From NCBI GenBank assembly GCA_003559555.1, contig PWLA01000309.1, positions 1 to 32,837 of the forward strand: DNA of 32,837 nucleotides, in the 5' to 3' direction. A program made the position numbers and the translations under genes. The stretch is from Gemmatimonadota bacterium (lineage in GTDB: Bacteria > Gemmatimonadota > Gemmatimonadetes > Longimicrobiales > Gaopeijiaceae). Shown one piece after another: positions 5,562 to 32,759 of this stretch (position 1 is its first letter; each line of letters starts with the position of its first letter). The notes under the pieces are model-generated. The model made no database searches and was not told the origin of the DNA. It saw only the letters and a program-made list of their open reading frames with translations.

Positions 5562-6662
5562 CTACGGGTCCGCCACCATGATGAAGCTGATTCCAGCGGG
5601 ACAGATCCCCACGGGGATCTCTTCGTCCACCTCGTAGGCCTCATCCATCCGGAGGACCCGGGACGGTCCCTCGCAGTCGGGAAAGACCGTGTAGAGGCGC
5701 CCTTCGGAGTCGACCCCGAGACCGGCCGTCGACGCCACGCCACCGGGCTGGATCGGGTTGTCCAGACCCCGGTGGAAGCTCCCGCTATCGGGGTCCCATG
5801 CAATCACACCGAAGCTCCACGAGCTGGCGTGAAGCAGACCTCCGGCCAGCGTCAGCCTCCCCGGAAGGTCACCGAATCCCATATGATGGCCCGTCTCCTC
5901 CAACTGCACCGGGTCAACCACCGAAAGCGAACCGTTGTCGGCACCCCAGCGTCCCCCGTTCAGCACGAAGACCCGCCCGTCGTCAGCGGCCACCGCCGAC
6001 CCGGGATTCTCTCCCGACAGTACGACCTCTCCGATCACTTCGAGGGTTCCCGGGTCCAGCGCCACGAGACGTCCAGGGCCCACAGGAGCGAAGTTCTCCA
6101 ACTGGGCGTCGATCACGAAGACCGTACCGCCCGCGTGGACGAAGCCCTGGGGATAGAGCCCCACCGCCACCTCGTCCTCGGCGGTGCCCTGCCATACATT
6201 CACATGGCTCACCGTCCCGAGTCCGGGATTCGCCACCAGCGCGGTGGAATCGGTCAGGAAGGTGGACCCGGTAGCTCCCGAACCCTCGGGCAGAGTGATG
6301 GTGCGAACCACCTGGGCCGTCTCCAGGTCCACCACCTGGGCCGCAGGGAACACGCCCATGGGCACCAGTGCCAGCCCGGCCCGGGTGGAGAGTCCCACCG
6401 GACTTCCGTCTCCACCCAGCTGAAGCTCCACCGTCCTGCGGTCGTCATGGGGGGCGTCCACGTCGAAGATGGTCAGCGTCTCCTCGACGCTGTTCAACAC
6501 CACCCCTACCTCCCGGAGGTCCTCCGAAGGGGGCGGTTCGGTGGGAGACGACCCGTCACAGCCGGCCAGAAGGAAGAAGACCGCCACCGCGACGGTCCAG
6601 GCGGTGGAGAGGGCTGAGAAATGGGTCCGTCGCATCGATCGAATCACAGGGTCATGCTCCAT
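5562..6662 (-). CDS. Beta-propeller lipoprotein, YncE/BtuG-like (probable surface B12-binding partner)
   Basis: A lipoprotein of up to 366 residues. A hydrophobic signal segment ends in the lipobox LLAGC, with acylated Cys35 if the start is at 6662, or Cys26 from the in-frame ATG at 6635. The 6635 start gives the cleaner signal peptide (MRRTHFSALST); neither site has a good Shine-Dalgarno. After a Ser/Pro linker come about seven repeats of roughly 45 residues with strand-turn-strand patterns such as GRLVALDPGTLEVIGEVVL and GSLSVVDPVQLEETG, a YncE-like propeller. It begins 26 bp after the stop of the TonB-dependent receptor, which is under a cobalamin riboswitch. In Bacteroides, BtuG is a beta-propeller lipoprotein that binds B12 and caps BtuB; position and fold suggest the same job here. 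That function is inferred, not shown by a residue-level match. Confidence 0.8.
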   Translation of the reverse strand: MEHDPVIRSMRRTHFSALSTAWTVAVAVFFLLAGCDGSSPTEPPPSEDLREVGVVLNSVEETLTIFDVDAPHDDRRTVELQLGGDGSPVGLSTRAGLALVPMGVFPAAQVVDLETAQVVRTITLPEGSGATGSTFLTDSTALVANPGLGTVSHVNVWQGTAEDEVAVGLYPQGFVHAGGTVFVIDAQLENFAPVGPGRLVALDPGTLEVIGEVVLSGENPGSAVAADDGRVFVLNGGRWGADNGSLSVVDPVQLEETGHHMGFGDLPGRLTLAGGLLHASSWSFGVIAWDPDSGSFHRGLDNPIQPGGVASTAGLGVDSEGRLYTVFPDCEGPSRVLRMDEAYEVDEEIPVGICPAGISFIMVADP

Positions 6663-6688
6663 GGTTTGGGTTCAGTGGATCGGACCAT

Positions 6689-8920
6689 CTACCGGCCCGT
6701 CCCGGGCCGTACGTCGACCTCGAGGCCGAAGGTGCGTCCCGGCTCGGGAAATTGGTGTATGAAGGGCGCCCGCTGATCCAGCAGGCGATCGATTCGGAGG
6801 AGGGGTTGGACGCTCCAGCCTCCAAGCTCGAGGCTCCCTCTTGCGGTCAACTCGAAGGTCCAGAAGGAAGGGAGGGCGTTGGCCGCGGCAGGGACGGGAA
6901 AGCGTTCTCCGGTGTAGCGAGCCTGCACCCGGGTGTGCCAACCGGCTTCCCTCCACCCCAGGCTCGCTCCGCCGGTGAGGCGGGGGCGGTAGATCACCTG
7001 AGCCCCCGGGGTTCCTCCGCCTCGTCGGTAGGTGGTCCGGTTCGCCGAGAGGTGTCCCCCGAGTCGGAGTCCGGACCGGGGGTGACGCAGCTCGCTTCGG
7101 AACTCCCCGCCCTGCCGCTTCACATCTACGTTCCGCGGGCTCCAGACGAACCGGAAGTCAGGGACCCAGACGATCATGTCCCTCATGTCCCCCCGGAAGA
7201 GCTCTCCCGCCAGATGCAGCTCGGTGGGCCCCAGTTCCCACCGGCCATCCAGACCCAGCTCCACCTCATGGGGCACCCGCTCGCCATGCAAATGGGGGTT
7301 GGGCTGTATTCCCACACCCTCCCGAAAGAAGAGATCGCCGGCCGAGGGAGGAGAGAAGGAGGAGCGGTGGGACAGGTGCAGAAGGACATCCGCCACGTCG
7401 AACTGCAGGGTCACGGCGTGGGCGGTGGCCCACTCCCGGGAGATGCCGTCGCGGTGCAGGCGAAGCGCGGTTCGGAGTCGGGGGGCGCCAGGGAGGGGGA
7501 CCTCCGCAAGTTCCCCGTAGACCCCGGTCTCCGCGGTGATGGACTCCAGCGCCGCATCTCCCTCCAGCGCATCGCTCCGAAGGAGTCGTCGGAGGCCATC
7601 CAACTCGGCACCCAGCAGGAGCCGGCCGCTCGCGCCCGGCTCGCCTTCCAGGCGAAAACGCGCACCGGTCTCCAGGAGCCGGGTTCGGTCGTCCAGAGGA
7701 AGGCCGATGGGGGGAGCCGGGTCCGAGAACCGGGCCGCCTGCCTCCGGTGGTGCAGTTGTCCTTCTACGTGGCCGCCGGACAGCTTCCGGGACCACCGGG
7801 CGCTGACCACAAGGACCCGTTGGGCCTGCCGGGCCGAGTCCGACGGGGCGAAGGCTTTCCCGGGAATGCCCCGCTCCAGGTCCTCCAGGCGGAGCCGGAG
7901 GGCGGCTCGGCCCATGAGGAGGTCGCCGCCGGCGCCGATTCGGAGGCCATGCTGGGCCAGGTCGGCGTTCCGGCGGCGGCGCTCCCCACCCCCCAAAGCC
8001 TCACCGGCCGGGTAGGTGAAGCCGCCCTGGTGGGCACGGGTCTCCCCACCCACCGAAAACCAGCTATGGGTCCCCTCGTGGACCAGATCGACGCGTCCAC
8101 CCCGCTCTCCCAACGAGCCCCCCTGGAGGGCCAACCCGCCGCTCTCGGTCCGGCCACGGGTTTCCACCAGCACCACCCCTGTGAGCGCCCCGGCTCCGTA
8201 TCGTGCCGTCCGGGCCCCCGGAAGCACCTGGATCCGTTCCACCTGACCGGTGGAGATGGCCGAAAGATCGGCCACGCCCGTCAGGGGGTCGTTGGTCACC
8301 ACCCCATCCACCAGAACCAGAACCTGATCCGCTGCCCCTCCCCGGAGTCGGATCTCCTGCGCTCCACCGGGTCCCCTCCGGACCACCAGGACGCCGGGCA
8401 ATCCATCGAGGAGGTCGCCGACGGTTCGGGAACCGCTGGCGGCGATGGCGTCTCGCTCTACCACCACACCTTCGTCCCGCTGGGCCTGCACGTGGACCCC
8501 CGCAGTTGGAAGGACTCGGGGGGTCAGTTCGACGCGGAACCGCGTGACCTGCCCGTTGCGGACATCGAGCGTGAGGGTGAAAGGCTCGTACCCGAAGCGA
8601 TCCAGGCGGAGCTCCACCTCTCCAGGGGGAAGTCCCCTCAGATGAAGGCTCCCGTCGCCCTCGGTGACGAGGTGACGGCCGGCCCCGACCACCGTGACCA
8701 GGACGCCGCCGAGCCCCGTTCCGGTGGGCTCGTCCACCACCCTCCCTCGAAGCTCACCGGGAAACTGGGCGGCACCGTCCGTCGCCCCGACTCCCCACGG
8801 ACCGTCGGCCAGGAGGAGCAGAAGGAGTAGAAAGGCTCCACACCCATACCGGAACAACGCGCTCCCCCGCAGGGGAAGCGGACTGGATGTCCGGACCGAT
8901 GGAAATGAAAGAACCCGCAC
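6689..8920 (-). CDS. btuB: TonB-dependent outer-membrane receptor, probable vitamin B12 transporter (BtuB type)
   Basis: A 743-residue receptor expected to import corrinoids across the outer membrane using TonB energy. The signal segment is LLLLLLLADGPWGVGA. A carboxypeptidase-regulatory-like domain follows (FPGELRGRVVDEPTGTGLGGVLVTV to about residue 130). The plug domain comes next (ASGSRTVGDLLDGLPGVLVVRRGPGGAQEIRLRG ... VLVDGVVTNDP ... VERIQVLPGARTARYGAGALTGVV), then a beta-barrel to the C-terminus. B12 specificity rests on the cobalamin riboswitch directly upstream. I chose the GTG at 8918-8920: it lies just after the aptamer and has GAGGGCGAG upstream. The frame stays open to 8995, but that part is the riboswitch core. 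A TTG at 8855-8857 with a strong GGGGGAG is an alternative start that would give a short signal peptide. The propeller lipoprotein gene follows 26 bp downstream. Confidence 0.88.
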   Translation of the reverse strand: MRVLSFPSVRTSSPLPLRGSALFRYGCGAFLLLLLLLADGPWGVGATDGAAQFPGELRGRVVDEPTGTGLGGVLVTVVGAGRHLVTEGDGSLHLRGLPPGEVELRLDRFGYEPFTLTLDVRNGQVTRFRVELTPRVLPTAGVHVQAQRDEGVVVERDAIAASGSRTVGDLLDGLPGVLVVRRGPGGAQEIRLRGGAADQVLVLVDGVVTNDPLTGVADLSAISTGQVERIQVLPGARTARYGAGALTGVVLVETRGRTESGGLALQGGSLGERGGRVDLVHEGTHSWFSVGGETRAHQGGFTYPAGEALGGGERRRRNADLAQHGLRIGAGGDLLMGRAALRLRLEDLERGIPGKAFAPSDSARQAQRVLVVSARWSRKLSGGHVEGQLHHRRQAARFSDPAPPIGLPLDDRTRLLETGARFRLEGEPGASGRLLLGAELDGLRRLLRSDALEGDAALESITAETGVYGELAEVPLPGAPRLRTALRLHRDGISREWATAHAVTLQFDVADVLLHLSHRSSFSPPSAGDLFFREGVGIQPNPHLHGERVPHEVELGLDGRWELGPTELHLAGELFRGDMRDMIVWVPDFRFVWSPRNVDVKRQGGEFRSELRHPRSGLRLGGHLSANRTTYRRGGGTPGAQVIYRPRLTGGASLGWREAGWHTRVQARYTGERFPVPAAANALPSFWTFELTARGSLELGGWSVQPLLRIDRLLDQRAPFIHQFPEPGRTFGLEVDVRPGTGR
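8860..8880 (-). promoter_or_regulatory. Stable 9-bp hairpin early in the receptor gene, ending two bases before an in-frame TTG
   Basis: On the minus strand the arms CGCTTCCCC and GGGGGAGCG pair over nine positions (one G-T wobble) around a three-base loop. The 3' arm contains GGGGGAG, a good Shine-Dalgarno placed correctly for the TTG at 8855-8857. The structure lies about 80 bases after the aptamer. It may hide a secondary ribosome binding site, slow early translation, or simply reflect a GC-rich signal-peptide region. Confidence 0.4.
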
Positions 8921-8922
8921 CT

Positions 8923-8961
8923 CTCGCCCTCGAAGAGTGCCTGGGAATAGCGTGGGGCGAG
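8923..8961 (-). promoter_or_regulatory. Shine-Dalgarno-sequestering hairpin, probable riboswitch expression platform
   Basis: On the minus strand CTCGCCC (8961-8955) begins at the base after the 3' strand of the aptamer's closing stem. It is exactly complementary to GGGCGAG (8929-8923). The latter lies within GAGGGCGAGAG, the ribosome binding site of the GTG at 8920. Pairing would hide the site, the usual logic of translational cobalamin riboswitches, in which ligand binding stabilises a hairpin abutting P1. The 25-base loop could contact the aptamer, but I have not identified a kissing partner. Confidence 0.6.
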
Positions 8962-9155
8962 CAGGTCTCCTGACTCGAGGCAAGCGCCTCCTCACCTTCC
9001 CGGAGCATGTCGCTCCAGTGGCTTCTCGAGGAGGGCTCGCTCCTGCGTCCGGACTCGGAGTCGGAACGCAGGGCCTCTCACAGTGGCGGGGCCGTGCCGG
9101 ATTCTCACCGGCTTCCGGATTGCATCGCCCGCAGAGTTGAGTTGTGTGGAACCTG
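8962..9155 (-). promoter_or_regulatory. Cobalamin riboswitch aptamer
   Basis: Read on the minus strand, this region carries the core boxes of the cobalamin riboswitch family in order. First is GCCGGTGAGAATCCGGCACG followed by CCCCGCCACTGTGAG (about 9112-9078). Then come a variable stem, AGCCACTGG, GGGAAGGTG, and finally the B12 box GAGTCAGGAGACCTGCTC ending near 8960. The closing stem P1 pairs CAGGT (9155-9151) with ACCTG (8966-8962). It lies in the leader of the TonB receptor gene, where B12 uptake genes are classically repressed by adenosylcobalamin or related cofactors. The 9156-9263 stretch between the riboswitch and the ComM stop should hold the promoter; I see no convincing -35/-10 pair there. 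Confidence 0.95.
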
Positions 9156-10901: not shown

Positions 10902-13900
10902 CTACCCTCCCGGGGCAGGCAAGGGATCCGCACCGCCGGCTTCCCTCCCCTCGACTGCCGACCCCGGCTCTCCGGACCGGGCCGTCCGGTAGGTCTGGCC
11001 CGCCGCTGCCGCCCTCCCCGCGGAGGCGGCCGGCGCCATCTCCACACCCTCGAATCCGGCCGCCCGCAGGGTCTGCCTGCGAACCGCATCGAGCCAGGCG
11101 CCCATGTCGTCGAACCAGGCGTAGAGGGTCGGCGTGAGGGCCAGGGTCAGGAGCGTCGAGGTCGTCAGGCCCCCGATCACGGCCTGCCCGATGGGGGCAA
11201 ACATGACCCCCATTCCCTCGGTGGCCCAGAAGGCCATGGGGACCAGCCCCATGAGGGTGGTGAGACTGGTCATGAGGATGGGCCGGAGTCGGGCGGTGCA
11301 CCCGGTGAGGAGGGCGTTCCGCCGGTCCATGCCCCGATCCCTGAGCTGGTTCACCAGGTCGATCATGACAATGGAATTGTTCACCACGATCCCCACCGTG
11401 ATGAGAATCCCCAGGAACGACAGAATGGAGAAGGTCGACCCGGTGAGCAGAAAGATGAGCCCCAGGCCCGGGACGGCAAAAAAGATGGAGAAGTAGATGA
11501 TGAGCGGAAGAACCAGCGACTCGAAGAGAGCCGCCAGGACCAGGTAGATCAGAACCAGAGCCAGAAGTGCGGCGATGAGCATGTCGCCGAATTGCTCCTG
11601 TTCCTCGGCCCATCCCCGTCCCAGGTCCCAGGAGTAGCCCACCGGGAGTTCGAAGCCGGCCATGGCCGCCTGTACGTCCTCGATGACGTCGTCCCGGTTG
11701 TAGCCGGTGGAGATTTCCGCCGAAACGGAAACGGCGGTCTGCCGGTTCTCCCGCTGGATGTCCTGGGGCCCGCCCACCACCATGATGTCCGCCACCGTAC
11801 CCAGGGGGACGCTGCTGCCGTCGACACTCCCCACGGCCAGGTTCCCGAGCTGGGCGATGGAGAGCCGGTCCTCGTCCCGGAGTTGCAGCAGGACGTCGAC
11901 CTCCCGCTCACCGGACCGGAACCGGGTGGCCACCGAGCCCCGAAGGGCTCCCGAGACCGCCTGGGCCACCTCCTGCGAGGTCAAGCCCTGCCGCTCTGCC
12001 GCCCGACGGTCGACCCGGACCCGAACCTCCTCGTTCCCCGACTCCAGCGAGTTGTCGACGTTGTTGACCCCCTCGACACTGGATTCCAGGTGCAACTCCA
12101 CCGCCTCTGCCAGCCGGGCCAGCTCCGTGGTGCTCTCTCCCACCAGGCGAACCTGGACGCCGGACATGCGCCCGAAGCCACGACGCTGCCGCCATTCCAC
12201 CCCGGGGATCACCGGCAACAGCTCTTCGATCTCCTCGGTGATCTGGGCCGTGGACTTGCTTCCGCCCTCGGAGAAGGGTTTCAGCGTCATGAAGATGCTG
12301 GCGAAGTTGGCCCCTGAGAAGGACGACACGTTCTCGATCTCCAGCTCCTCGGCCCGGGCCAGGAGCAGATCCTCCGCCTCGGCAAAGATCTGGCTCCGCT
12401 CCTCCACCGACACCCCTCGGGGTGTGGACACGCTCATCCGGATGAAGCGATTGTCCTCCTCCGGCATGAGCTCCCGAGGCAGATCCACCAGGACCATGCC
12501 TCCTGCCGCGAAGAGGGCCACCGCCACCCCGGCCGTGATGTACCGGTGCCCCAGGATCCGATCCAGCATTCCCCGGTACGTCTCGTTCATCCACGTCATG
12601 GCCCGGCCCGGATCCGGCATCTTGCCCCCCAGGAGCCGAACCGCCAGGAGGGGGACCAGGGTGAAGGCCACCCCCAGCGAGGCCAGCATGGTAAAGGAGA
12701 TACTGGTCCCGAAGGCCCTGAACTGGGTGCCCATCTGGGTCGCAGGCAGAAAGAAGAGGGGGGCAAAGACGATGACCGTGGTCACCGTCCCCGAGAGGAT
12801 GGCGAGACCCACCTCATTGGCCCCTTCCACTGCTGCCTGCTCCGGGCCCGACCCCAGCTCCCGGTGCCGGAAAATGTTCTCCACAACCACCACTGCATTG
12901 TCGATGAGCATGCCCACGGCGAGCATCAGCCCCGACAGGGTGATGATGTTCAGCGATTCCCCAAACACGTAAAGGATGGCCACCGTAAAGATGAGCGACA
13001 CGGGGATCGCCCCGGCAACGATGAAGGTGGGCGTGATCCGCCGCAGGAAGGCGAAGAGCACGATGATGGCCAGGATTCCGCCCACGACCCCTGCGCTGGC
13101 CAGCAGCCAGAGAACCTCGATGATGCCCTCGGACTGGTCCTGCCAGATCCGGAAGCTCACGCCCTCCAGTCCCGGCCGCTGCGTGATCTCTTCGAGTGTG
13201 GCCCTGACCGCCTGAGCCACCTCCACCACGTTGGCATCCGATTCCTTGTAGACCTGGGCCTGCCGGGCGTTCACCCCGTTCATCCGGAAGAAGAAGTCCC
13301 GCTCCGGAAAGTCATAGGTGACCTCGGCCACGTCGGACAACCGCACTCCCTCGGCGTTGAGGGGAAGGTTCTCGATGGCCTCCACCGACCGGAGTTGTCC
13401 CTCGGCGATGACCTGGAACCGGGTCCCATCCAGCTCCAGCTCCCCGGCGGAATAATCTTCGTTCCCGCGGTTCAGGGCTCTGCTGATCATGGCGATTGTG
13501 ATGCCCTGGGACCGCATCCGGTCCTGGTCCAGCTCCACCGAGACCTCCCGGGCCTCGAGACCGGAAAACTCCACCTGGGCCACCCCGGAGACCTGCAGGA
13601 GGGCGGGCTCGATCTGACGCTCTACCAACTCCGTCAGGAGGGCTGCATCCCCGTCCCAAGAGATGGCGGCCCTCAGAACCGGCTGCTCGTCGGACGAAAA
13701 ACGGCGCAGGTCGATCCGCTGCACGTCGGCCGGCAGATCCCGGCGCACCAGCTCCACCCGCTCCCGAACCTCGAGGGCGGCCATGTCCATGTCGGTGCCG
13801 GGCTCGAACTCCAGCTCCACCCGACCCCGATTCTGCGAGGCGGTGGACCGGATGGTCTCCAGCGACCGAACCGTGCCCAGCTCCTCCTCCAGGGGCCGCA

Positions 13901-14090
13901 CGATGCGCCGCTCCACCTCTGCCGGCGAGGCGTCGGGGTAGGGCACCGTGACCTGCAGCACCGGCCGCTCATAGCTGGGGAACATGTCCAGCGAGATGAG
14001 CGAGGTCGAGATCAGGCCCAGCACGATGACGGTGACCACCATCATCCCGGTGGTGACCGGCCTGCGTACTGCGAATCTGGGAAGTGACAT
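10902..14090 (-). CDS. RND efflux transporter, inner-membrane pump subunit 2
   Basis: A 1062-residue RND permease of the AcrB-like (HAE1-type) family that exports compounds from the periplasm or inner membrane, driven by protons. It starts MSLPRFAVRRPVTTGMM with the first membrane segment, followed by porter domains with the usual PGTDMDMAALEVRERVE signature (about 97-113). The second RND half is present, ending with membrane segments near LGILITVGIVVNNSIVMIDLVNQ. In segment 4 the motif is GMLIDNAVVVVEN (Asp397-Asn398), so it has one acidic residue where AcrB has Asp-Asp. The AcrB segment-10 lysine is replaced by Asn (VVNNSIV). These are common variants outside the enterobacterial pumps. The gene starts 50 bp after RND pump 1. 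Substrate is unknown. Confidence 0.94.
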   Translation of the reverse strand: MSLPRFAVRRPVTTGMMVVTVIVLGLISTSLISLDMFPSYERPVLQVTVPYPDASPAEVERRIVRPLEEELGTVRSLETIRSTASQNRGRVELEFEPGTDMDMAALEVRERVELVRRDLPADVQRIDLRRFSSDEQPVLRAAISWDGDAALLTELVERQIEPALLQVSGVAQVEFSGLEAREVSVELDQDRMRSQGITIAMISRALNRGNEDYSAGELELDGTRFQVIAEGQLRSVEAIENLPLNAEGVRLSDVAEVTYDFPERDFFFRMNGVNARQAQVYKESDANVVEVAQAVRATLEEITQRPGLEGVSFRIWQDQSEGIIEVLWLLASAGVVGGILAIIVLFAFLRRITPTFIVAGAIPVSLIFTVAILYVFGESLNIITLSGLMLAVGMLIDNAVVVVENIFRHRELGSGPEQAAVEGANEVGLAILSGTVTTVIVFAPLFFLPATQMGTQFRAFGTSISFTMLASLGVAFTLVPLLAVRLLGGKMPDPGRAMTWMNETYRGMLDRILGHRYITAGVAVALFAAGGMVLVDLPRELMPEEDNRFIRMSVSTPRGVSVEERSQIFAEAEDLLLARAEELEIENVSSFSGANFASIFMTLKPFSEGGSKSTAQITEEIEELLPVIPGVEWRQRRGFGRMSGVQVRLVGESTTELARLAEAVELHLESSVEGVNNVDNSLESGNEEVRVRVDRRAAERQGLTSQEVAQAVSGALRGSVATRFRSGEREVDVLLQLRDEDRLSIAQLGNLAVGSVDGSSVPLGTVADIMVVGGPQDIQRENRQTAVSVSAEISTGYNRDDVIEDVQAAMAGFELPVGYSWDLGRGWAEEQEQFGDMLIAALLALVLIYLVLAALFESLVLPLIIYFSIFFAVPGLGLIFLLTGSTFSILSFLGILITVGIVVNNSIVMIDLVNQLRDRGMDRRNALLTGCTARLRPILMTSLTTLMGLVPMAFWATEGMGVMFAPIGQAVIGGLTTSTLLTLALTPTLYAWFDDMGAWLDAVRRQTLRAAGFEGVEMAPAASAGRAAAAGQTYRTARSGEPGSAVEGREAGGADPLPAPGG

Positions 14091-14140
14091 GGTTCGACCT
14101 GTCCTCAGCTGGTGGCTCTTGCGGGGTGCATGTTCATGGC

Positions 14141-17100
14141 CTACGCCGGATCCGGAGAGGGTCCGCTCCGGGCGGTGGCCCCTGCCGGCAGGGAGTCGCG
14201 GGCTGGGCGCTCCACTGGCGCTTCCTCACCAGCCGGCGCTTCCAGGTGGGCTCGTTCCTGGCGGATTTCGAAGAGGCGGTAGAGAACGGGCACCACCACC
14301 AACGTCAGGATCGTGGACAGGATGAGTCCCCCGATGACGGGGATGGCCAACGGCACCCGGAGCTCGGCTCCCTCACCGGGAATCAACGCCAGGGGAAGAA
14401 GGCCCAGCACGGTGGTGATAGTGGACATCATGATCGGGCGGAAGCGCACCCGCCCAGCCTCCACCAGTGCATCGTCCAGAGCGTAGCCCTCCTCCCTCCG
14501 GAGAATGTTCACGTAGTCCACCAGGACGATGGCGTTGTTCACCACGATCCCCACAAGCATGACCATCCCGATGAGGGCCACCACCGAGATGGAATGGCCC
14601 GTAAGCCAGAGGGCCGCCACCGCTCCCGGAAGCGCCAGGGGTACCGAGGCCAGAATCACACCGGGCTGCCGGAACGACTCGAACTGGCTTGCCATGACCA
14701 GATATACCAGGAAGATGGCCAGCAGAAGCGCCATCTGCATGGACCGGATCGACTGCTGAAGATCCCTGGACTGCCCGGCTACGGCCACGAACACGTCGCT
14801 TGGGACCTGGAGCCCCGCCACCGCCTCCTCGATCCGACTGATGGTGCCGGCCAGGTCCGCTCCCACCGGACGAGCCTCGACCAGGGCCACACGGGTCCCT
14901 CCCCGCCTCACGATCTCCGACGGACCGTCCTGGAAGTTCAGGTCCGCCACCGCCGCCAGCCCCACACTCCCGCCGCCGGGGATCTCCAGGCGAAGGTTCT
15001 CCAGGTCGTCCAGGCTGGTGCGCTGCTCGGCCCGGGCCCGGACCAGGACGTTCAGATCCCGGTCCCGCTCGGTGAATTCGGTGGCCGATGCCCCCCGGAT
15101 CTTGGCCTGGAGAGCCTCCGCGGCATCGGCCACGGTGAGCCCCTGGCGGGCCAGCCGCTCCCGATCGAAGCGGATGGCGATTTCCGGAGAACCCTGCCGG
15201 CGCTCCTCCTCCACCCCTGTGATTCCGGGCAGCGTGCGCAGAAGAGCCCGCACGTCGCTGGCGGTCTGGTTCAGGAGGTTCAGATCGTAGCCCCGCACCT
15301 CCACCTCCACCGGGGCGCTGACGGTGAAGAGCTGAGGGCGATCCACCCGCACCTGGACCCCGGGAAGCGTCGACAGGTCATTGGTGAGCTCCACGGCCAA
15401 GCGGTCTTCGAGCCCGCCCACCTCGGTGAGCCGAACCAGGAGGGTGGCGGCGTGCCGCTCCAGCTCGCCGGTTCGTCCCAGCGTACCGGCGCCGCCCCGA
15501 ACCCCCACATTGGTGAAGACTTCCCGGACCTCGGGCTTCTCCAGCGCCACCGCCTCGGCCCTCCGGGCCAGCTCCTCCATCCGGAGGAGGCTCGTTCCGG
15601 GTGCGGCTTCCAGCTCCACCACCAACTCGCCCTGCGACAGCTCCGGCACCAACGAGATGCCCACCCGGGGAATCAGGACGACCCCCACCGCCAGCGCCAC
15701 CAGGGCCCCACTCAGGATCAGGATGGGACGGCGTAGGGCCTGCTTCAGAATGCCCGGATACCGACGGTCGACCCACCCGTACACAGCATCGAAACCACGG
15801 CTCACCGGACTCAGGAGGCGTGCGAACCCACCGCCTCCCTTCCGCAGGCGCTTCAGCACCCCGCCCGTTCCGTTGGCCAGAGCCGTCCCCACCTTCCCCG
15901 GGGCGGACGCCGACGTGCCTTCTCCGGTCCGGGCCCGAGCCCCCTGCCCCCTTGCCGCCAGCATGGGGATCAGGGTGAGCGAGACCACCAGCGCCGAAAG
16001 CAGGGCGAAGGAGACGGTCCAGGCCTGGTCCCCGAAGAGCTGACCCGCCACTCCCTCCACGAAGACGATGGGGATGAAGACGGCCACGGTGGTGAGGGTG
16101 GCGGCCACCACCGCCCGCCCCACGCGGTCCGTGCCCCGGCGAGCGGCCTCCACCACCGAATGGCCCTTCTCCCGCTCCCGGGCAATGGACTCCAGGACCA
16201 CGATGGCACTGTCCACCAGCATCCCGATCCCCAGCGCCAGCCCGCCCAGCGACATGATGTTCAGGGAGATGTCGCGGGAGAACATGAGCACGAAAGTGGC
16301 GATGACCGAAATGGGGATGGCGGTGACCACGATGAGCGTAGTAGGCAGGTGCCGTAGAAAGAGGAGAAGCACCAGCATGGCGAAGATCCCGCCCAGGATC
16401 GCCGCCAGACGGACGTCACCCACCGCCTGCTCGATGAAGACCGCCTGGTCGGTGGTGAGGCTGGTGGTCACCCCAGGCGGGAGCTCGGCGTCCAGGGCGT
16501 CCAGCCGGTCCCGTACCACCCGGGAGAGCGCCACGATGTTGGCAGTGGACTCCCGGAGGACGGCGACCTCCACCGCTTCGTTCCCGTTCACCAGCGAAAC
16601 CGTCTCCCGTTCAGCAGCTTCCCGGTGCACTTCGGCGACGTCCCGGAGCAACACGGATTGTCCCCCGGCCGTTCCCACCACCACGTCCAGCATCTCGTCG
16701 ACCTCGACGAACTCGTTGACGGTGCGGACTACGTACTCGGCGTCACCCTCCTCCAGAATCCCTCCGGCCAGATTGATGTTCTCGGCAGCCAGACGCTGGG
16801 CCACCTGGGTGAAGGGGATCCCGAGCTGCGCCAGGCGACTTTCGTCCACCTCCACCAGGACCTCCTCCTCCAGTCCCCCGGTGACCCTGACAGCAGCGAC
16901 TCCCTCGATTCCCTCCAGGGCACGTCTCACCTGCTCCTCGGCCAACCAGCGGAGCGCGATGAGCTCGTCCCGGTCCTCCTCCATGCGGGGATCCAGCGCC
17001 CGATCCGAGACCAGGGCGAACCGAACGACCGGCTCGGAGGCCGGATCGTAGCGGGCGATGGTGGGACGTCCGGCGTCCGGTGGCAGGTTGATCAGATCCA

Positions 17101-17434
17101 AGCGCTCCCGGATGTCCATGGAGGCGAAGTCCATGTCCGTTCCCCAGGAGAACTGGATCGTGATCTCCGAGCGGCCGGGACGGGAGCGGGACGTCACCTG
17201 TTCCACCCCCTGAACCACCGAGATGGCCTCCTCGATGGGCCGGGAGATGAGGTTCTCCACCTCCCGGGGACCCACCCCCTGGTACTCGGTCTCGATGCTG
17301 ATGGTGGGGAACGAGATGTCCGGGAGGAGGTCCATCGGGAGTCGGGAATAGGAGACCATCCCGAAGACGATGACCGCAATGAAGGCCATGGACACCGCCA
17401 CCGGGCGGGCCACGGAGAAGTCGACGACCCTCAC
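14141..17434 (-). CDS. RND efflux transporter, inner-membrane pump subunit 1
   Basis: A 1097-residue AcrB-like RND permease, clearly different in sequence from its downstream neighbour. It begins VRVVDFSVARPVAVSMAFIAV and has the porter signature GTDMDFASMDIRERLD and segment-4 motif GMLVDSAIVVLES (Asp408-Ser409). Segment 10 has VVNNAIVLVDYVN, so the AcrB Asp pair and Lys are not conserved. After membrane segment 6 there is a Gly/Ala/Arg-rich cytoplasmic linker of roughly 50 residues (GQGARARTGEGTSASAPG and beyond), longer than usual. The start codon is a GTG sharing one base with the TAG of the adaptor gene, so translation is probably coupled. With the adaptor and TolC-like channel it should form a tripartite pump; pairing with pump 2 as a mixed trimer is possible. 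Confidence 0.94.
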   Translation of the reverse strand: MRVVDFSVARPVAVSMAFIAVIVFGMVSYSRLPMDLLPDISFPTISIETEYQGVGPREVENLISRPIEEAISVVQGVEQVTSRSRPGRSEITIQFSWGTDMDFASMDIRERLDLINLPPDAGRPTIARYDPASEPVVRFALVSDRALDPRMEEDRDELIALRWLAEEQVRRALEGIEGVAAVRVTGGLEEEVLVEVDESRLAQLGIPFTQVAQRLAAENINLAGGILEEGDAEYVVRTVNEFVEVDEMLDVVVGTAGGQSVLLRDVAEVHREAAERETVSLVNGNEAVEVAVLRESTANIVALSRVVRDRLDALDAELPPGVTTSLTTDQAVFIEQAVGDVRLAAILGGIFAMLVLLLFLRHLPTTLIVVTAIPISVIATFVLMFSRDISLNIMSLGGLALGIGMLVDSAIVVLESIAREREKGHSVVEAARRGTDRVGRAVVAATLTTVAVFIPIVFVEGVAGQLFGDQAWTVSFALLSALVVSLTLIPMLAARGQGARARTGEGTSASAPGKVGTALANGTGGVLKRLRKGGGGFARLLSPVSRGFDAVYGWVDRRYPGILKQALRRPILILSGALVALAVGVVLIPRVGISLVPELSQGELVVELEAAPGTSLLRMEELARRAEAVALEKPEVREVFTNVGVRGGAGTLGRTGELERHAATLLVRLTEVGGLEDRLAVELTNDLSTLPGVQVRVDRPQLFTVSAPVEVEVRGYDLNLLNQTASDVRALLRTLPGITGVEEERRQGSPEIAIRFDRERLARQGLTVADAAEALQAKIRGASATEFTERDRDLNVLVRARAEQRTSLDDLENLRLEIPGGGSVGLAAVADLNFQDGPSEIVRRGGTRVALVEARPVGADLAGTISRIEEAVAGLQVPSDVFVAVAGQSRDLQQSIRSMQMALLLAIFLVYLVMASQFESFRQPGVILASVPLALPGAVAALWLTGHSISVVALIGMVMLVGIVVNNAIVLVDYVNILRREEGYALDDALVEAGRVRFRPIMMSTITTVLGLLPLALIPGEGAELRVPLAIPVIGGLILSTILTLVVVPVLYRLFEIRQERAHLEAPAGEEAPVERPARDSLPAGATARSGPSPDPA

Positions 17435-18597
17435 TAGTCACTCCCGTCCACGGGGGCGCCGTCCAGCTCCATCAGGCGAACCGGGGCGTTGGGCCTCAGG
17501 TTGTCCTGGCCCACCACCACCACGGTATCGCCGGGTTCGAGCCCCGAGGCGATCTCGATCCGGTCACCCCGGGAGTACCCCAGCGACACCTCGCGCTCGA
17601 GTGCCCGACCGTCCCGGACGACGAAGACCCGGGGCACGGCCCCGTCCACCAGCACCGCGGTGCGGGGGAGGGTGATCCGGTCGCCCAGCGTCTCGGTGAC
17701 GATGTCCACGTTCACGAACTGGCCGGGCCGGAGCCGGGTATCCTCCCGGGCCGACACGCTGATGGTCACCTGCACGGTCCCACTTTCTGGGTCCACCACC
17801 GGCCGGATCCGCTCGACCCGGCCGGTGGCGATGGGCTCCCCTCCCTCCTGGACGAGAATCCGTGCGGCCTGCCCCACCTGGACCCGGGCGGCCTGCCGCT
17901 CGGGCACGGCCACCTGTGCCTCCAGGCGGTCCAGGTCCGCCACCTCGAAGGCGGGATTCGTGGTTCCTACCTGGCTCCCTCGCTCGATGTACCGATGGGT
18001 CACCACCCCGGCGATGGGCGAACGGATCTCGGCGTTTCGGACCCGGAGCTCCGCCAGCTCCAGGTCCGATGCGGCCACGGCGGAATCCGACACCAGGTTG
18101 CCCACCTCCTGTTCGGAAATGAGGTCCAGCTCGGCCAGGGCTCGCGCCCGGCTCGCCCGCTCGCTGGCCGACTGCGCCCGCGCTCGAGCCTGGGCCGCCT
18201 GCAGACGCCACTCCTCGTCGTCCAACCGGGCCAGAACCTGGTTCTCCTGAACCCGGTCCCCTTCCTCGTGGTGGATGGTGGCCACGAGCCCGCCCTGTTT
18301 CGGGATCACCTCCACCGTCTCCTGGGCCTTCAGGTTGGTGGAACCGCGCAGCGTCACCTCCAGCGCCTCGGTGACGGCGATCCGGGCCGAAACCGGGATC
18401 ATCCGCTCGCCACCAGGACCTCCCTCGGCAGCCCGGGCCATCTGGCCTCCGCCGCCGTTCTCGTCCACATCGGTCCCGCAACCAGCCAGCAGGACGGTGG
18501 CCGTGGCGGCAAGCAGCGCGAGGACTGCCAGGCGCAGATGCCGACCCTTGGACCGGGTGGTGACTCGGCGTTCAAATCGCTTCGTATCAACCTTCAT
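17434..18597 (-). CDS. RND efflux periplasmic adaptor (membrane fusion protein), lipoprotein
   Basis: A 387-residue HlyD/AcrA-like adaptor that joins the RND pump to the outer-membrane channel. It carries a lipoprotein signal with lipobox LLAGC (Cys40) and so should be anchored in the inner membrane. Next come the first half of the lipoyl domain (VEVIPKQGGLVATIHHEEGDRVQENQVLARLD, about 93-125), a short helical hairpin rich in Ala/Arg/Glu (125-185), and the second lipoyl half (VRNAEIRSPIAGVVTHRYIERGSQVG). The beta-barrel and membrane-proximal domains end in GLEPGDTVVVVGQDNLRPNAPVRLME. The ATG at 18595-18597 has AGGGGA upstream. It overlaps the RND pump 1 start by one base. The gap from the TolC-like gene is 173 bp, with nothing else recognisable in it. 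Confidence 0.94.
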   Translation of the reverse strand: MKVDTKRFERRVTTRSKGRHLRLAVLALLAATATVLLAGCGTDVDENGGGGQMARAAEGGPGGERMIPVSARIAVTEALEVTLRGSTNLKAQETVEVIPKQGGLVATIHHEEGDRVQENQVLARLDDEEWRLQAAQARARAQSASERASRARALAELDLISEQEVGNLVSDSAVAASDLELAELRVRNAEIRSPIAGVVTHRYIERGSQVGTTNPAFEVADLDRLEAQVAVPERQAARVQVGQAARILVQEGGEPIATGRVERIRPVVDPESGTVQVTISVSAREDTRLRPGQFVNVDIVTETLGDRITLPRTAVLVDGAVPRVFVVRDGRALEREVSLGYSRGDRIEIASGLEPGDTVVVVGQDNLRPNAPVRLMELDGAPVDGSD

Positions 18598-18770
18598 CTA
18601 TGGGTCCCCTTTCAGGTCCGTGCAAACGCCCGCTCTCCTGCCTCGGAGGCGGCGTTCTGTGCGTGTATTGAACCCCGGGACGCGCCCGGTTTCATGCCTC
18701 GTACGTCGTGGTACCCCGCCCCAGGTCCCGGTGCCTACCGCTGAAGGCAGCCCGGCGCTGCGCTGACCAT

Positions 18771-20333
18771 TCACTCCCTCAGCGACATCCCCACCAGGGC
18801 CTCCAGTCCAGCAAAGAACATGTGGAAGCTGTAGATGGCGGAAATCTCGTCCTGCTCGGCCTGGGAGAGATTGGCCTGGGCGTCCACGACCTCGATGGAG
18901 GACGCCAGCCCCAGCCGGAAGCGTTCCTGTGCGAGCCGTAGCTCCTCGGCGGCCGTCTCCCGGTTCCGGGTCTGGAGGGCTACCGTCCGATGAGCCGTCT
19001 CCACCGACCTGACGGCGCTCTCCACTTCGGCCTCGAGCCGCAGCTCCTCAGCCCTCACCTGCCGCTGGGCGTTGGTCTCCGAGATCCGGGCCTCCTCCAT
19101 CTGGAGCTGCCGGGAGAAGCCCGTGAAGATGGGGATCGAAACGCCCACCGAGAAGGAGAGGGGCTGGGGCCGGTAGTCGAAGGGAAAGCCCCGATTCTGC
19201 TCCCTCACCTGTTCCCTGGCTTCCGCTTCGACCTGAGGGATCGAGGGATCGAACTGGCTGCAGTCCCGTGGTGGATCGCCCAGGAGGGCCCGGAGACGGT
19301 TGTCCTGGACGCACGACTCGTACTGCCCCTGAAGCTGACCGAGACGGCTGTCGATGAGGGGGGCCACGTCGGCCGCCTCGGTGACCGAACCCCGCCAGCT
19401 GGCCGAAAGCGAGATCGAGGGGAGGTACTGGGAGCGGGTCATGCGGGTCTGGGTCTGCGCCGCAGACGCCTGACTCCGGGAGGCCCTCAGCACCGGATTC
19501 CGGTCCATCGCCATGGAAAGGAGCTCGTCGGAGTCCAGTTCAGGCTCGAAGAGCTGGAACTGGGTGGTCAACTCCGTCTCCGGCCGAATCGCCACCCCCA
19601 CGATCCGGCCCAGCGAAAGCCGACTGGTGTAGGCCGCGTTCTCGGCCTGCAGAAGCTGAACCTCGGCCTGCCCCTCCTGGAGCTCGGCCCTTCGAATGTC
19701 CAGTGGCGTAGCCGCCCCCACCTCCACCTGGGCCTCGGCCTGACGTACGTAGGAGCGGGTCCGCTCCAGTTCGCTCTGCGCCTGTCGGAGTTGCTCCTCA
19801 GCCTCGAGAACGGAGAGGTAGGCCTGGGTCACCTCATCCACGAGTCCCGCGGACGCTCCATCGATCTGGGCCTCGATGACGGCGTTCTGATCCCGGACCA
19901 CCGAGGGCCGGAGAAAGGTGGCGCCGCTCAGGCTGGTGGAAACGCCCACATTGTAGCTGGAGGAGTAGATTGCCGGCTCCGTGGCCACCACCACCGACTC
20001 GAAGAGTCGATCCCCGGAGGCGGTGTATCCGAACGACTGGGAGGCACTGGCCGAAGGCAGCATGTCCCCCCACGCCTCCCGCGTTCTCAGGTGGGCGGCA
20101 TCCCTCTGAGATTCCTGGACCCGGTAATTCGGGTTGTACTCGTGGGCCAGGCGGATCGCCTCATCCAGCGAGACCTGATCCAGCGAACGGATGTCGATAT
20201 CAGCGGCTGCGCCCGAGCCGTAGGACCGGGCGTCCTGGGCAGCCACGGCCAGCGGTACGGTTCCCAGAAGGAGAACCGAAAGCAACCCGGCTAGCAGGCC
20301 CGTGGACGGCCTTGGAAACTGGAGGATCACCAC
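18771..20333 (-). CDS. TolC family outer-membrane efflux channel
   Basis: A 520-residue outer-membrane efflux protein with two OEP repeats. A signal peptide ends near AVAAQDA (about residue 34). Repeat 1 (about 52-245) has the coiled helices LVDEVTQAYLSVLEAEEQLRQAQSELERT and the short surface loop between SASQSFGYT and YNVGVSTS. Repeat 2 (about 266-500) has RNPVLRASRSQASAAQTQTR, strand SISLSASWRG, strand LSFSVGVSIPIFTGF, and helix EELRLAQERFRLGLASSIEVVDAQANLSQAE. The loop between these two strands (about 315-391) is very long and contains Cys341 and Cys358. It starts at a GTG (20331-20333) with CGGAG upstream; a second GTG follows directly. It is the first gene of the efflux operon and divergent from the HAD gene. 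Confidence 0.94.
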   Translation of the reverse strand: MVILQFPRPSTGLLAGLLSVLLLGTVPLAVAAQDARSYGSGAAADIDIRSLDQVSLDEAIRLAHEYNPNYRVQESQRDAAHLRTREAWGDMLPSASASQSFGYTASGDRLFESVVVATEPAIYSSSYNVGVSTSLSGATFLRPSVVRDQNAVIEAQIDGASAGLVDEVTQAYLSVLEAEEQLRQAQSELERTRSYVRQAEAQVEVGAATPLDIRRAELQEGQAEVQLLQAENAAYTSRLSLGRIVGVAIRPETELTTQFQLFEPELDSDELLSMAMDRNPVLRASRSQASAAQTQTRMTRSQYLPSISLSASWRGSVTEAADVAPLIDSRLGQLQGQYESCVQDNRLRALLGDPPRDCSQFDPSIPQVEAEAREQVREQNRGFPFDYRPQPLSFSVGVSIPIFTGFSRQLQMEEARISETNAQRQVRAEELRLEAEVESAVRSVETAHRTVALQTRNRETAAEELRLAQERFRLGLASSIEVVDAQANLSQAEQDEISAIYSFHMFFAGLEALVGMSLRE

Positions 20334-28715: not shown

Positions 28716-31700
28716 TTAGGTTTCTACGGGCGCCGCGTCAGCCCCCTGGCTCGCAACGGCGCTCCACGGTCGGAGCCTCACGGTCATGGTGGTACCCTCG
28801 CGGGGCATGCTTTCCGCCCATATTCGTCCGCCCCAGGACTCCACCAGGCGGCGCACGATGGCCAACCCGAGTCCCGATCCACCGGAGCGGGTCGAGAAGT
28901 GGGGTTCGAAAATCCGGGGCAGAAGGTCCTCCGGAATCCCGACACCGTCATCGATCACCCGGAGCTCCACGTCACCGTCCATCTGCTCCGCCTCCACCGC
29001 CACCGCACCTCCCGAAGGCAGCGCCTCCCGGGCGTTCTCCAGGAGGTTGATGAGGACCTCCTTCAGCTCTCCCTCCCGTGCAGAGACCCGGGGCACCTCC
29101 CCTACCCCGCGGAAGTCGAAGCTCACCGGTCCATCGCCAGCCTGGTAGAGGGCCAGTACCTCCCTCATGACCTCCTGCACGTCCACCGCCTCGGGCGGCT
29201 CTCCGCCCATGGCCGACGGTGCACCGAAGCGAGCGAAGCTGGAGGCGATCCGTGCCAGACGCTCGATCTCACCCAGGATAGCCTCCGCATTCCGTTCCAG
29301 GATCCGGTCGAAGTCGGGGTGTTCGTCCTGCCAGGCCCGACGAATGTGCTGCACACCCAGCTTGATGGGGGTCAGGGGGTTCTTCACTTCGTGCGCCACC
29401 TGGCGAGCCATTTCCCCCCAGGCCAGGATCCGTTCCGTCCGGAGTTCGTCTGTGACGTCTTCCAGGCTCACCACCGCGCTTCCCGGTGGTCCCCGGCGGC
29501 TGACCCGCCGGGCCCGCACCCGGATCCGTCGATCGCCGAACTGGAGCTCGGTGGCCGCCTCCTGCAGTCCGTCGCGCATATACCGCTCGACCCAGTGGGC
29601 CAGCACCGACCTGGGGTCCTCCGGCCCCTCCCCTGCCGGCAGCGTCTGCCGACGGGGCAACGGGACCCCCAGGAGTCGTTCGGCCCGGGGATTGGCCAGC
29701 GTCACCTTTCCGTCCGGATCCAGCGCCACCACCCCCGTCGCCACTTCCTCCATGATGGCCTGGGTCCGCCTGGAGCTTCGGATGAGGGCCCTCCGGGTGC
29801 GTCCCAACCGGTCCACCATCCGGTTGAAGGCCCCGAACACCGCCCCGAACTCGTCGGCTCGGTCCTCCGGCAGGTGAACGCCCATGTTCCCGGCTCCGAC
29901 GCGCTCCGATGCCACCCGGAGCGTCTGGATGGGCCGGGTCAGAGCACGTCCCACCAGGAAGGAGAGAAGGACCGAGAGCCCTGCGCCCAATACCACCGCG
30001 AACCCGATGAGGTCGGCCACGTCTCGCTGCCGCAGCGCCGTGGCGCCGGCCTGCAGGGGAGCCGGTGCCGCCAGAACCTGACCCCCGGCGATCCTCCTGT
30101 AGGCCACCACGTAGTCCCAACCGCCAAGGGAAGCCGTCGTGGTCGTCATCAACTCCTCTCCCTCCGCGATCCGCCGGTGCAGCTCGGGCGGGAGCCATCC
30201 CTGGTAGAGTCCCAGATCGGCCAGCTCCGGCAGGGACCCGGCCACCAGCTCTCCTTCCTCATAGAGGAGGAGATCCGACCCGGCTCGGCGGGCCAACACG
30301 TCCATGGCACCGCCCACCTCACCGTACCAACTGGCCGCCTCCTCCACCGCCCGTTCCGCCAATGTCTCCGCGGTGCGCACAGCGGCTCCGGCAAGCGTCT
30401 GGTACGCCAGGGTTCCAAACGCCACCGACGGGACCAGAAAGAAGGCGAAGAGCGCCAGGGTCACCCGCCCCCGAAAGGACGTGAGCCACGGACCCAACGC
30501 CCCCGGAATCATGCCATCGCCCCGAGCCACCCTTCTCCCCAACCCCCAGACCACGAGCCCTCCACCCAGGGCCAGCAGGAGGAGCAGGGTGCTTCGGGCC
30601 ACGATCAGCGCATGGCCGGGAAGCTCGAGCAGGTAGTGTCCGTGGTAGATCTCGTCGGGAAACGCAAGGTACAGTTCTCCCTGCCACCCGTCCGGGGCTC
30701 TCACCCACTCGATCCCCTCGGTGGCTCCGGGAGCCTCCCCGGGCATGAGAGGGATCAGGACCAGCGGATCGGGCTCGTCCTGGGCCGGAGAGAACAGCGG
30801 GCCCAACGGCGATCGGGTCGCCAGAGTCCTCCGGGGAGGCGCCACCAGCGAGATTGCGGCACCCCGGGAGAGGGGCGCCACCGCCATGTAATGCACATCG
30901 GCCAGGTCGAATCCCCGAAGTCGGACGTCAGCTTCCATGATGGCCTGCTGTACCAGGTCCAGGGGAAGGTCGGGACGTTCCCCCGTGACTCCGATCCGCA
31001 ACTCCTCCTGTGCTTCACCATCGGGGGACCAGACGGTGAGCCACACCGGCACACCTTCTGCTGCAAGTCCGCTTCGAACCCATGCACCGTAAAGGGTCTC
31101 GACCGCGTTTCGACCGGTGGCGGCCAGCTCCCGGGCCTCTTCTCCGGCCCGGAGCAGGAGAAATTCCAGGAAGGGGTCCGGGCGGGTTCCCAGGCGCTCC
31201 ACCTCCTCCTCCGCCACCACCATCCGGGCCTCCACCTGAAGAGACCACGCCCACGGGAGCGTGAGCCCGGCGGCCAGAATGAATCCCAGCGCCAGGTGGA
31301 CCACCCCGTCCCCCCATCGTCGTCCAGCCGGAAGCGAGAGAGCGGCCATGGCCAGGGGAACGATCCAGAGGACCGCGGACCAGGCTGGGATCTCCGGTCC
31401 CGTCCGAACTCGCCATGCACCCAGTATCGCCAGGACCAGCGCCACCCCCAGACCCCCCGCCAACAGGACGGGACGAATCCGGTCACCCTCGCTCCGGGTG
31501 AGGAGGAGGGCCACGGTGAAGAGGAGACCCACCAGAAGACCGGCCACCACCTGGAAGGTCACCCACCCCCGTTCGCCCTCCGACAGGAGCTCGTAGGACA
31601 CGCCCGCGTCCATCCCGGCCATGATGGCCACGCCCAGAAGAATCGCTCCCGGAAGCGTAAGCCAGGGAGGGAGGGAGGGCGTGCGCTCCCGGTGCACCAC

Positions 31701-32759
31701 GCCCAGGAGGAAGACGGCCGAGACCGCCAGCACCAGCAGGTGGCCCAGAGTCACGCCGGGGACCCCCGGAAGCAGAAGCCCGCCCGGAGAAAAGAGTTCC
31801 GGGGCACCCAGCAGCCCGCCCAGCGGAAGAATCAGGATGAGTCCCGCAAGGGTGGCACTGTGGATCGCCAGTCCGGCCCGGGACCCTTGAACCCACCGGA
31901 GTCCGATGAGCCAGACCAGGGCCATGAGGAGCGCCACGGCCCGTTCCCACCAGAGGGCACGGGCCTCCAGCGAGTCCGCCTCCGACAGCGGGGTTACCGT
32001 GACGCTGAAAAGCACCCGGTCCTCCCAGCGGAGGTCCCAGACGCTCTCGCCTTCGACCCGGTCTTCCCGGGAGATGTGGATCCGGGCACCCCTCCGCTCG
32101 AGGAACCGGGAGGTGAAGTCGTCCCGATCCTGATCCAACCCAGGAGGAAGATCGGCACTCAGGAGTACAGCCGCCACGGCCGTGCCCCGCTGCTCCGGAA
32201 GGGGGTGGGTCACGTACAGGTACCCGAAGAGGGCACCATCCTCGTAGAGATATCGCTCCTGACCGAACCGGGCCCGCTCGGGAAAGGGGCCCTGGTGGAG
32301 TCCATCCCAGGCCAGAAGCTCGCCTTCGGGTCCGAACACCGCCACCCCGTTCACCCCCTCCCTGACAAGCCCTCCAGGCAGGGTCGGCCCCTCTTCCCCT
32401 GCGGCCCTCCAGACCCCGCCGACCCGTTCCACTGCGGCCTCAGCCCTCCGGAGCAGGGCGTCCAGGTCCCGATCCAGGTGCTCCTGAACCCGGGTCTCCC
32501 AGTCCTGCACATGTTCGTCCCAGGTGGCCGAAAACCGTCGAAGGTCTCCCTCGGCGGCGAAGCCCAGGGTAATCCCCACCACCAGCAGACCCAGACCGAT
32601 GGCCGCCGGCCGCCCCCGGGGCGGGCGCACCAGCAGGGCGGCCCCCACCCCGGCAGTGGCCAGAGCCAGAAACCACGGACCGGCGCCGCCGATCCAGGCC
32701 CCCATCGCCAGGAGGGCCCCGGACAGGCAGAGCAGCGGAAGGAGTCGACGTGGGGACAA
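28716..32759 (-). CDS. Very large NtrY-like sensor histidine kinase, polytopic
   Basis: A 1347-residue kinase. Three membrane segments (about 5-69) precede an extracytoplasmic part (70-268) that starts with a coiled helix (FSATWDEHVQDWETRVQEHL). A block of about eight membrane segments follows (270-510), then a second extracytoplasmic part (511-715), segments at 717-743 and 765-790, a third extracytoplasmic part (791-912) and a last segment (914-938). The cytoplasmic end has HAMP (938-992), PAS (995-1105), HisKA with phospho-acceptor His1123 in QVAHEVKNPLTPIKLG, and HATPase with LLENAREAL, DDGVGIP and SGLGLAI. The H-box style is NtrY. The start is a TTG at 32757-32759; Met19 would cut into the first membrane segment. 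Typical NtrY proteins are about 700-770 residues. No response regulator is adjacent. Confidence 0.92.
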   Translation of the reverse strand: MSPRRLLPLLCLSGALLAMGAWIGGAGPWFLALATAGVGAALLVRPPRGRPAAIGLGLLVVGITLGFAAEGDLRRFSATWDEHVQDWETRVQEHLDRDLDALLRRAEAAVERVGGVWRAAGEEGPTLPGGLVREGVNGVAVFGPEGELLAWDGLHQGPFPERARFGQERYLYEDGALFGYLYVTHPLPEQRGTAVAAVLLSADLPPGLDQDRDDFTSRFLERRGARIHISREDRVEGESVWDLRWEDRVLFSVTVTPLSEADSLEARALWWERAVALLMALVWLIGLRWVQGSRAGLAIHSATLAGLILILPLGGLLGAPELFSPGGLLLPGVPGVTLGHLLVLAVSAVFLLGVVHRERTPSLPPWLTLPGAILLGVAIMAGMDAGVSYELLSEGERGWVTFQVVAGLLVGLLFTVALLLTRSEGDRIRPVLLAGGLGVALVLAILGAWRVRTGPEIPAWSAVLWIVPLAMAALSLPAGRRWGDGVVHLALGFILAAGLTLPWAWSLQVEARMVVAEEEVERLGTRPDPFLEFLLLRAGEEARELAATGRNAVETLYGAWVRSGLAAEGVPVWLTVWSPDGEAQEELRIGVTGERPDLPLDLVQQAIMEADVRLRGFDLADVHYMAVAPLSRGAAISLVAPPRRTLATRSPLGPLFSPAQDEPDPLVLIPLMPGEAPGATEGIEWVRAPDGWQGELYLAFPDEIYHGHYLLELPGHALIVARSTLLLLLALGGGLVVWGLGRRVARGDGMIPGALGPWLTSFRGRVTLALFAFFLVPSVAFGTLAYQTLAGAAVRTAETLAERAVEEAASWYGEVGGAMDVLARRAGSDLLLYEEGELVAGSLPELADLGLYQGWLPPELHRRIAEGEELMTTTTASLGGWDYVVAYRRIAGGQVLAAPAPLQAGATALRQRDVADLIGFAVVLGAGLSVLLSFLVGRALTRPIQTLRVASERVGAGNMGVHLPEDRADEFGAVFGAFNRMVDRLGRTRRALIRSSRRTQAIMEEVATGVVALDPDGKVTLANPRAERLLGVPLPRRQTLPAGEGPEDPRSVLAHWVERYMRDGLQEAATELQFGDRRIRVRARRVSRRGPPGSAVVSLEDVTDELRTERILAWGEMARQVAHEVKNPLTPIKLGVQHIRRAWQDEHPDFDRILERNAEAILGEIERLARIASSFARFGAPSAMGGEPPEAVDVQEVMREVLALYQAGDGPVSFDFRGVGEVPRVSAREGELKEVLINLLENAREALPSGGAVAVEAEQMDGDVELRVIDDGVGIPEDLLPRIFEPHFSTRSGGSGLGLAIVRRLVESWGGRIWAESMPREGTTMTVRLRPWSAVASQGADAAPVET

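Follow-up and report, generated by a model that had tools for sequence, protein, structure and literature searches.

On the minus strand of the window, by which we mean the whole 32,837-nucleotide stretch of contig PWLA01000309.1 from a sediment-type Gemmatimonadota bacterium (assembly GCA_003559555.1; Longimicrobiales, Gaopeijiaceae), a cobalamin riboswitch is followed by a gene for a TonB-dependent receptor and then by a gene for a beta-propeller lipoprotein (Table 1). This trio, recognized on one strand in an initial annotation, is real and not a product of chance, given the RF00174 match, the Pfam domains of the receptor and the lipobox of the propeller open reading frame. The reported 26-bp gap between the receptor stop and the propeller ATG (6688-6663) was likewise recovered, whilst the span given for the locus (5562-9155) needed correction at its upper coordinate, which trims 16 bases from an aptamer that reaches 9171. 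That aptamer is the sole RF00174 match found in the genome (3.5 Mb, 90% complete).

Table 1. Features of the riboswitch, receptor and propeller locus, in window coordinates.
Feature	Position	Strand	Basis
Cobalamin (B12) riboswitch aptamer, RF00174	8943..9171	-	cmscan 64.9 bits (cut-off 31.5), E 4.7e-14, full model 1-189
Probable expression platform, intrinsic-terminator-like attenuator	8907..8945	-	hairpin 8945-8914 followed by TTCTTTC (8913-8907)
TonB-dependent receptor, BtuB family	6689..8857	-	Pfam Plug and barrel; family profile and congener fold matches are BtuB
N-terminal carboxypeptidase-regulatory-like domain (CarboxypepD_reg)	8522..8752	-	PF13620, 4.4e-12, ORF residues 82-158
Receptor Plug domain	8174..8464	-	PF07715, 6.2e-21, ORF residues 178-274
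Seven-bladed beta-propeller lipoprotein, BtuG-like, 366 aa	5562..6662	-	AlphaFold2 model, fold and profile searches
Lipobox cysteine Cys35 codon (LLAGC-DGSS)	6558..6560	-	sequence

The core of the hairpin directly after the aptamer is almost invariant in eight related leaders, with a T-run next to it in most, and a stable hairpin with a T-run was present in 16 of 30 leaders compared to 13 of 150 mononucleotide shuffles. The window hairpin (-12.8 kcal/mol) is by itself no better than shuffles (z -0.48), so the case for a terminator is drawn from the comparison across leaders; the hairpins of two relatives reached z values of about -3. From this conservation of hairpin and T-run we infer that the riboswitch works by transcription attenuation. 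The window hairpin (8907-8945) contains TTCGAGG, which could form an antiterminator by pairing with CCTCGAG in the aptamer. The receptor frame is open from GTG 8995 to 6689, and since this GTG lies inside the aptamer and a second, GTG 8920, falls within the conserved terminator-like hairpin, the true start is probably TTG 8857, which has GGGGGAG upstream.

The receptor combines Plug and barrel domains with a closest relationship to BtuB, and stands under cobalamin riboswitch control. A profile of 33 receptors matched BtuB1 of Bacteroides thetaiotaomicron best among PDB entries (1.1e-45) and Escherichia coli BtuB second (1.2e-36). Scores were 149-157 bits for Bacteroidota BtuB, 126 bits for E. 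coli BtuB and 66-87 bits for PqqU and CirA. A fold search with a model that includes a congener's receptor gave BtuB for all of the top 12 matches, led by B. thetaiotaomicron BtuB3 and BtuB1. NCBIfam TIGR01779 was the best-ranked model for the receptor, yet its score of 73.1 bits lies below the curated cut-off of 599.7, and the protein is therefore classed as BtuB-like by profile and fold, outside that curated equivalog.

The AlphaFold2 model of the propeller (mean pLDDT 91.5) predicts 28 strands in seven four-stranded blades with a velcro closure, and in a search of 350,542 PDB chains its top 15 matches were all BtuG1, BtuG2 or BtuG3. A profile of 44 relatives also placed BtuG1 entries first (2.3e-19), followed by the generic propeller 1l0q (4.4e-18) and YncE (0.07). 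The lead over 1l0q, a YVTN propeller, is small (72.7 versus 68.6 bits; Foldseek E 5e-16 versus 2.5e-14), so that fold alone does not prove function. Alignment with Bacteroidota BtuG by hhalign gave 97.1% probability over 326 columns, co-linear from the lipobox to the C-terminus, whilst E. coli YncE gave 36% over 38 columns, and in profile score YncE reached 15 bits against 41 bits for BtuG. Of the two names, the 'YncE-type' label originally attached to the protein is the weaker. Sequence identity to BtuG is 14-17%; the single propeller sequence gave no match in Pfam (including DUF5074), NCBIfam or, by phmmer, the PDB, and DUF5074 was weakly matched by 9 of the 44 family members. With its predicted seven-bladed fold, the ranking of BtuG above generic propellers and its place beside btuB behind a riboswitch, the propeller counts as BtuG-like, and by profile alignment it is a remote full-length homologue of BtuG. 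Across the family, the DA and BC loops, which lie on one propeller face, are better conserved than those of the other face (permutation p 0.0004); the window protein is strongly acidic (net charge -34), and an acidic residue (D/E) stands at positions +2 to +5 after the lipid cysteine in 35 of the 36 members with a detected lipobox.

The initial annotation had proposed a search for the same gene pair behind cobalamin riboswitches across Gemmatimonadota, and the pair does recur. The propeller was found in 48 of 146 genomes of the source bacterium's order and, at thresholds of E up to 1e-20 for the propeller and up to 1e-70 for the receptor, in 72 of 249 genomes of the phylum (about 29%); the receptor was found in 44 of the 249, with the propeller immediately downstream in 39. 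Among the exceptions, the receptor lies at a contig end in G319 and G390, a weakly scoring propeller follows it directly in G401, and G017 and G388 are partial receptor matches. Pairs lacking riboswitches, which had been named as evidence against the proposal, are not the pattern seen, as RF00174 was present in 49 of the 50 genomes reached via named receptor loci. The named matches to the receptor alignment were all from Gemmatimonadota, except for one KSB1 genome and one 'Acidobacteriota' bin (L106), the latter probably a mis-named Palauibacter-like bin. In KSB1 the riboswitch-btuB-propeller arrangement occurs in 1 of 82 genomes (L122 9563-13454), so this copy was probably acquired by transfer.

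Three arrangements recur in the relatives, namely riboswitch-btuB-propeller, riboswitch-btuB-propeller-btuF-btuC-btuD and riboswitch-btuF-btuC-btuD-btuB-propeller, and in some cbiB joins the B12 transport unit. Several genomes of family f4 (L153, L156, L158, L161, L162, L168; L169-L172) carry a riboswitch-btuF-btuC-btuD-propeller unit without a receptor, and in this family another riboswitch, at a separate site, precedes a BtuB-like receptor gene that stands alone, giving a split B12 regulon. The propeller therefore tracks B12 transport genes and not any receptor. Variants were also observed: two propeller lipoprotein genes lie in tandem behind one receptor in L063 (933-3155), L064 (2057-4314) and L065 (4253-6510), and in L066-L070 an Ig/PKD-like stretch (TLTATDSDGNTG) precedes the propeller and two divergent riboswitches flank an intergenic region.

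The nearest characterized counterpart is the BtuB-BtuG system of B. thetaiotaomicron (loci 1-3; BT1953/BT1954; PDB 8blw, 8bmx, 8p97), which shares with the Gemmatimonadota locus a riboswitch followed by BtuB and a seven-bladed propeller lipoprotein, acidic residues after the lipid cysteine and, in several relatives, adjoining btuFCD genes, and which supplies the top profile and fold hits to both proteins. It differs in phylum, in the low sequence identity and in DUF5074, which the window propeller does not match; the Gemmatimonadota receptor carries an additional carboxypeptidase-regulatory-like domain at its N-terminus, no BtuH-type gene was seen, and sub-lineages of Gemmatimonadota depart further, with added sequence ahead of the propeller, propellers in tandem or a propeller that follows btuFCD. 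Gene order matches in the Bacteroidota loci that we read, both from plasmid records: Bacteroides finegoldii has a riboswitch, BtuB and a BtuG1-type protein, and Phocaeicola massiliensis a riboswitch, BtuB, BtuG and one other ORF, then BtuF, BtuC and BtuD-like proteins, these last three named from their own sequence. The pocket of BtuG2 is formed by residues that include Trp194, Trp272 and Tyr316; the Phocaeicola BtuG read here contains no tryptophan. E. coli BtuB, which works with BtuFCD, belongs to the same family of B12 TonB-dependent receptors and is the second-best profile match, but has no propeller partner and is more distant in the receptor tree. The E. coli yncE gene, too, adjoins a TonB-dependent receptor gene, pqqU (yncD), but the two are divergently transcribed without a riboswitch, and YncE scores far below BtuG.

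We consider it likely that the locus is an uptake unit of BtuBG type repressed by B12, for which we infer B12 binding, surface exposure, a receptor-propeller complex and attenuation. When B12 in the cell is low, the leader would let transcription enter the receptor and propeller genes, and when B12 is bound the terminator-like hairpin after the aptamer would halt it. The propeller would be lipid-anchored on the outer membrane, probably at the cell surface, where it may capture corrinoids at one face of the tunnel through its centre before passing them to the BtuB-type receptor; this would move them to the periplasm with TonB energy, and a separate BtuF-BtuC-BtuD system would finish the import. 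In B. thetaiotaomicron, BtuG caps BtuB and binds B12 on its receptor-facing side, and the BtuB loop EL8 expels B12 (PMC10404256); by analogy, the same mode most likely applies to the Gemmatimonadota pair. The complex was modelled by stop-codon read-through in a congener whose two genes share one frame, which gave two well-folded domains with a pTM of 0.67 and a relative orientation that is not fixed, leaving binding, surface exposure and the complex as putative features. The source genome encodes methylmalonyl-CoA mutase and, on another contig, btuF-btuC-btuD (Pfam identified BtuC and BtuD; BtuF was recognized in the open frame next to them). Neither CbiB nor MetH was found in this genome, which is 90% complete; relatives do have a MetH, and we counted its absence against the BtuBG reading. 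According to earlier work, Gemmatimonadota cultures depend on B12 and the phylum contains btuB (PMC10581226, PMC10469786).

The propeller might instead serve B12 uptake while facing the periplasm from the outer membrane, taking B12 over from BtuB and delivering it to BtuF without forming an outside lid. Such a role would explain why in family f4 it follows btuD whilst the receptor is encoded elsewhere, and surface export of lipoproteins is not established in Gemmatimonadota; we nevertheless regard it as unlikely, since the propeller adjoins BtuB in the same way as the surface lid BtuG of Bacteroidota (PMC10404256), and since the acidic residues after the lipid cysteine (35/36) resemble the export signal described for Bacteroidetes lipoproteins (PMC6143338). 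A low identity to BtuG and the close score of 1l0q would also fit a generic YVTN-type surface propeller that joined the Gemmatimonadota BtuB operon and came to work similarly, with no common BtuB-BtuG ancestor. This we judge distinctly unlikely, as both the profile and the fold search put BtuG first and all 326 aligned columns run co-linear, and as the receptors, too, fall with Bacteroides BtuB (support 92/93, at an open fork). Cobalamin riboswitches also govern cobalt uptake in other bacteria. This, with the adjoining pqqU and yncE genes of E. coli, could point to a B12-regulated pair importing a different ligand, for instance chelated cobalt, only a precursor of corrinoids, or a cofactor resembling PQQ, the case of E. 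coli PqqU, but BtuB clearly outranks PqqU and CirA in receptor score, and btuFCD and cbiB sit in the same riboswitch units in relatives, making such a ligand very improbable. A B12-regulated BtuBG-type uptake unit remains the preferred reading. The riboswitch linkage, the first rank of BtuB and BtuG in profile and fold searches and the phylum-wide co-occurrence with btuFCD lend good support to the suggestion that receptor and propeller form a B12 capture system outside Bacteroidota.

As to its descent, that system had been suggested to be independent or transferred. Independence is disfavoured by the full-length homology of the propeller to BtuG and by the receptor tree, in which the Gemmatimonadota sequences make up one clade with full support (100/99) that meets the KSB1 and Bacteroidota receptors at 92/93, a moderately supported open fork that leaves E. 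coli BtuB outside. Identical gene order would suit a recent horizontal transfer of the btuBG operon from Bacteroidota, but we hold this to be extremely unlikely given the monophyletic receptor clade, the very low identity and a native GC content (68.6% for the receptor-propeller pair, 67.9% for the window); of the idea of transfer, only an old event stays in play. Tree and GC content together favour old shared descent or old transfer, the tree being too thin to choose between them, and the sequence comparisons most likely describe a divergent BtuBG system outside Bacteroidota that was inherited or transferred long ago and not recently. More tentatively, and with slightly less than even confidence, BtuB-BtuG may be an old trait of the FCB group and not an adaptation of gut Bacteroidetes, kept in about 29% of sampled Gemmatimonadota, with a propeller that also works away from the receptor gene, behind btuFCD. 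Were that so, the propeller behind btuFCD would imply a role in B12 capture wider than that of a receptor lid.

From a survey of 313 gut genomes together with BlastP, BtuG has been described as exclusive to Bacteroidetes (Wexler et al., 2018, PMC6143338), and no mention of BtuG together with Gemmatimonadota was found in the literature searched. A BtuG-like propeller recurs across Gemmatimonadota, as the profile matches indicate, and if the homology is accepted the claim of exclusivity fails at the profile level. The divergent relative belongs to uptake operons under B12 switches across a phylum that is mostly environmental, whilst BtuG has been discussed as a tool in the competition for gut B12, able even to strip the vitamin from intrinsic factor (PMC6143338). 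If the propeller binds B12, lipoprotein-assisted B12 uptake at the outer membrane would not be tied to the gut, a set of unannotated propeller proteins would gain a function, and competition for corrinoids by Gemmatimonadota in soil and sediment would become a testable question.

Elsewhere in the window, consecutive minus-strand genes (10902-20333) encode a pair of RND efflux permeases together with an adaptor and an outer-membrane efflux protein. A 1347-aa HAMP/PAS/histidine-kinase-type ATPase protein lies at 28716-32759, where a 1313-aa open frame on the opposite strand is likely a high-GC artefact.
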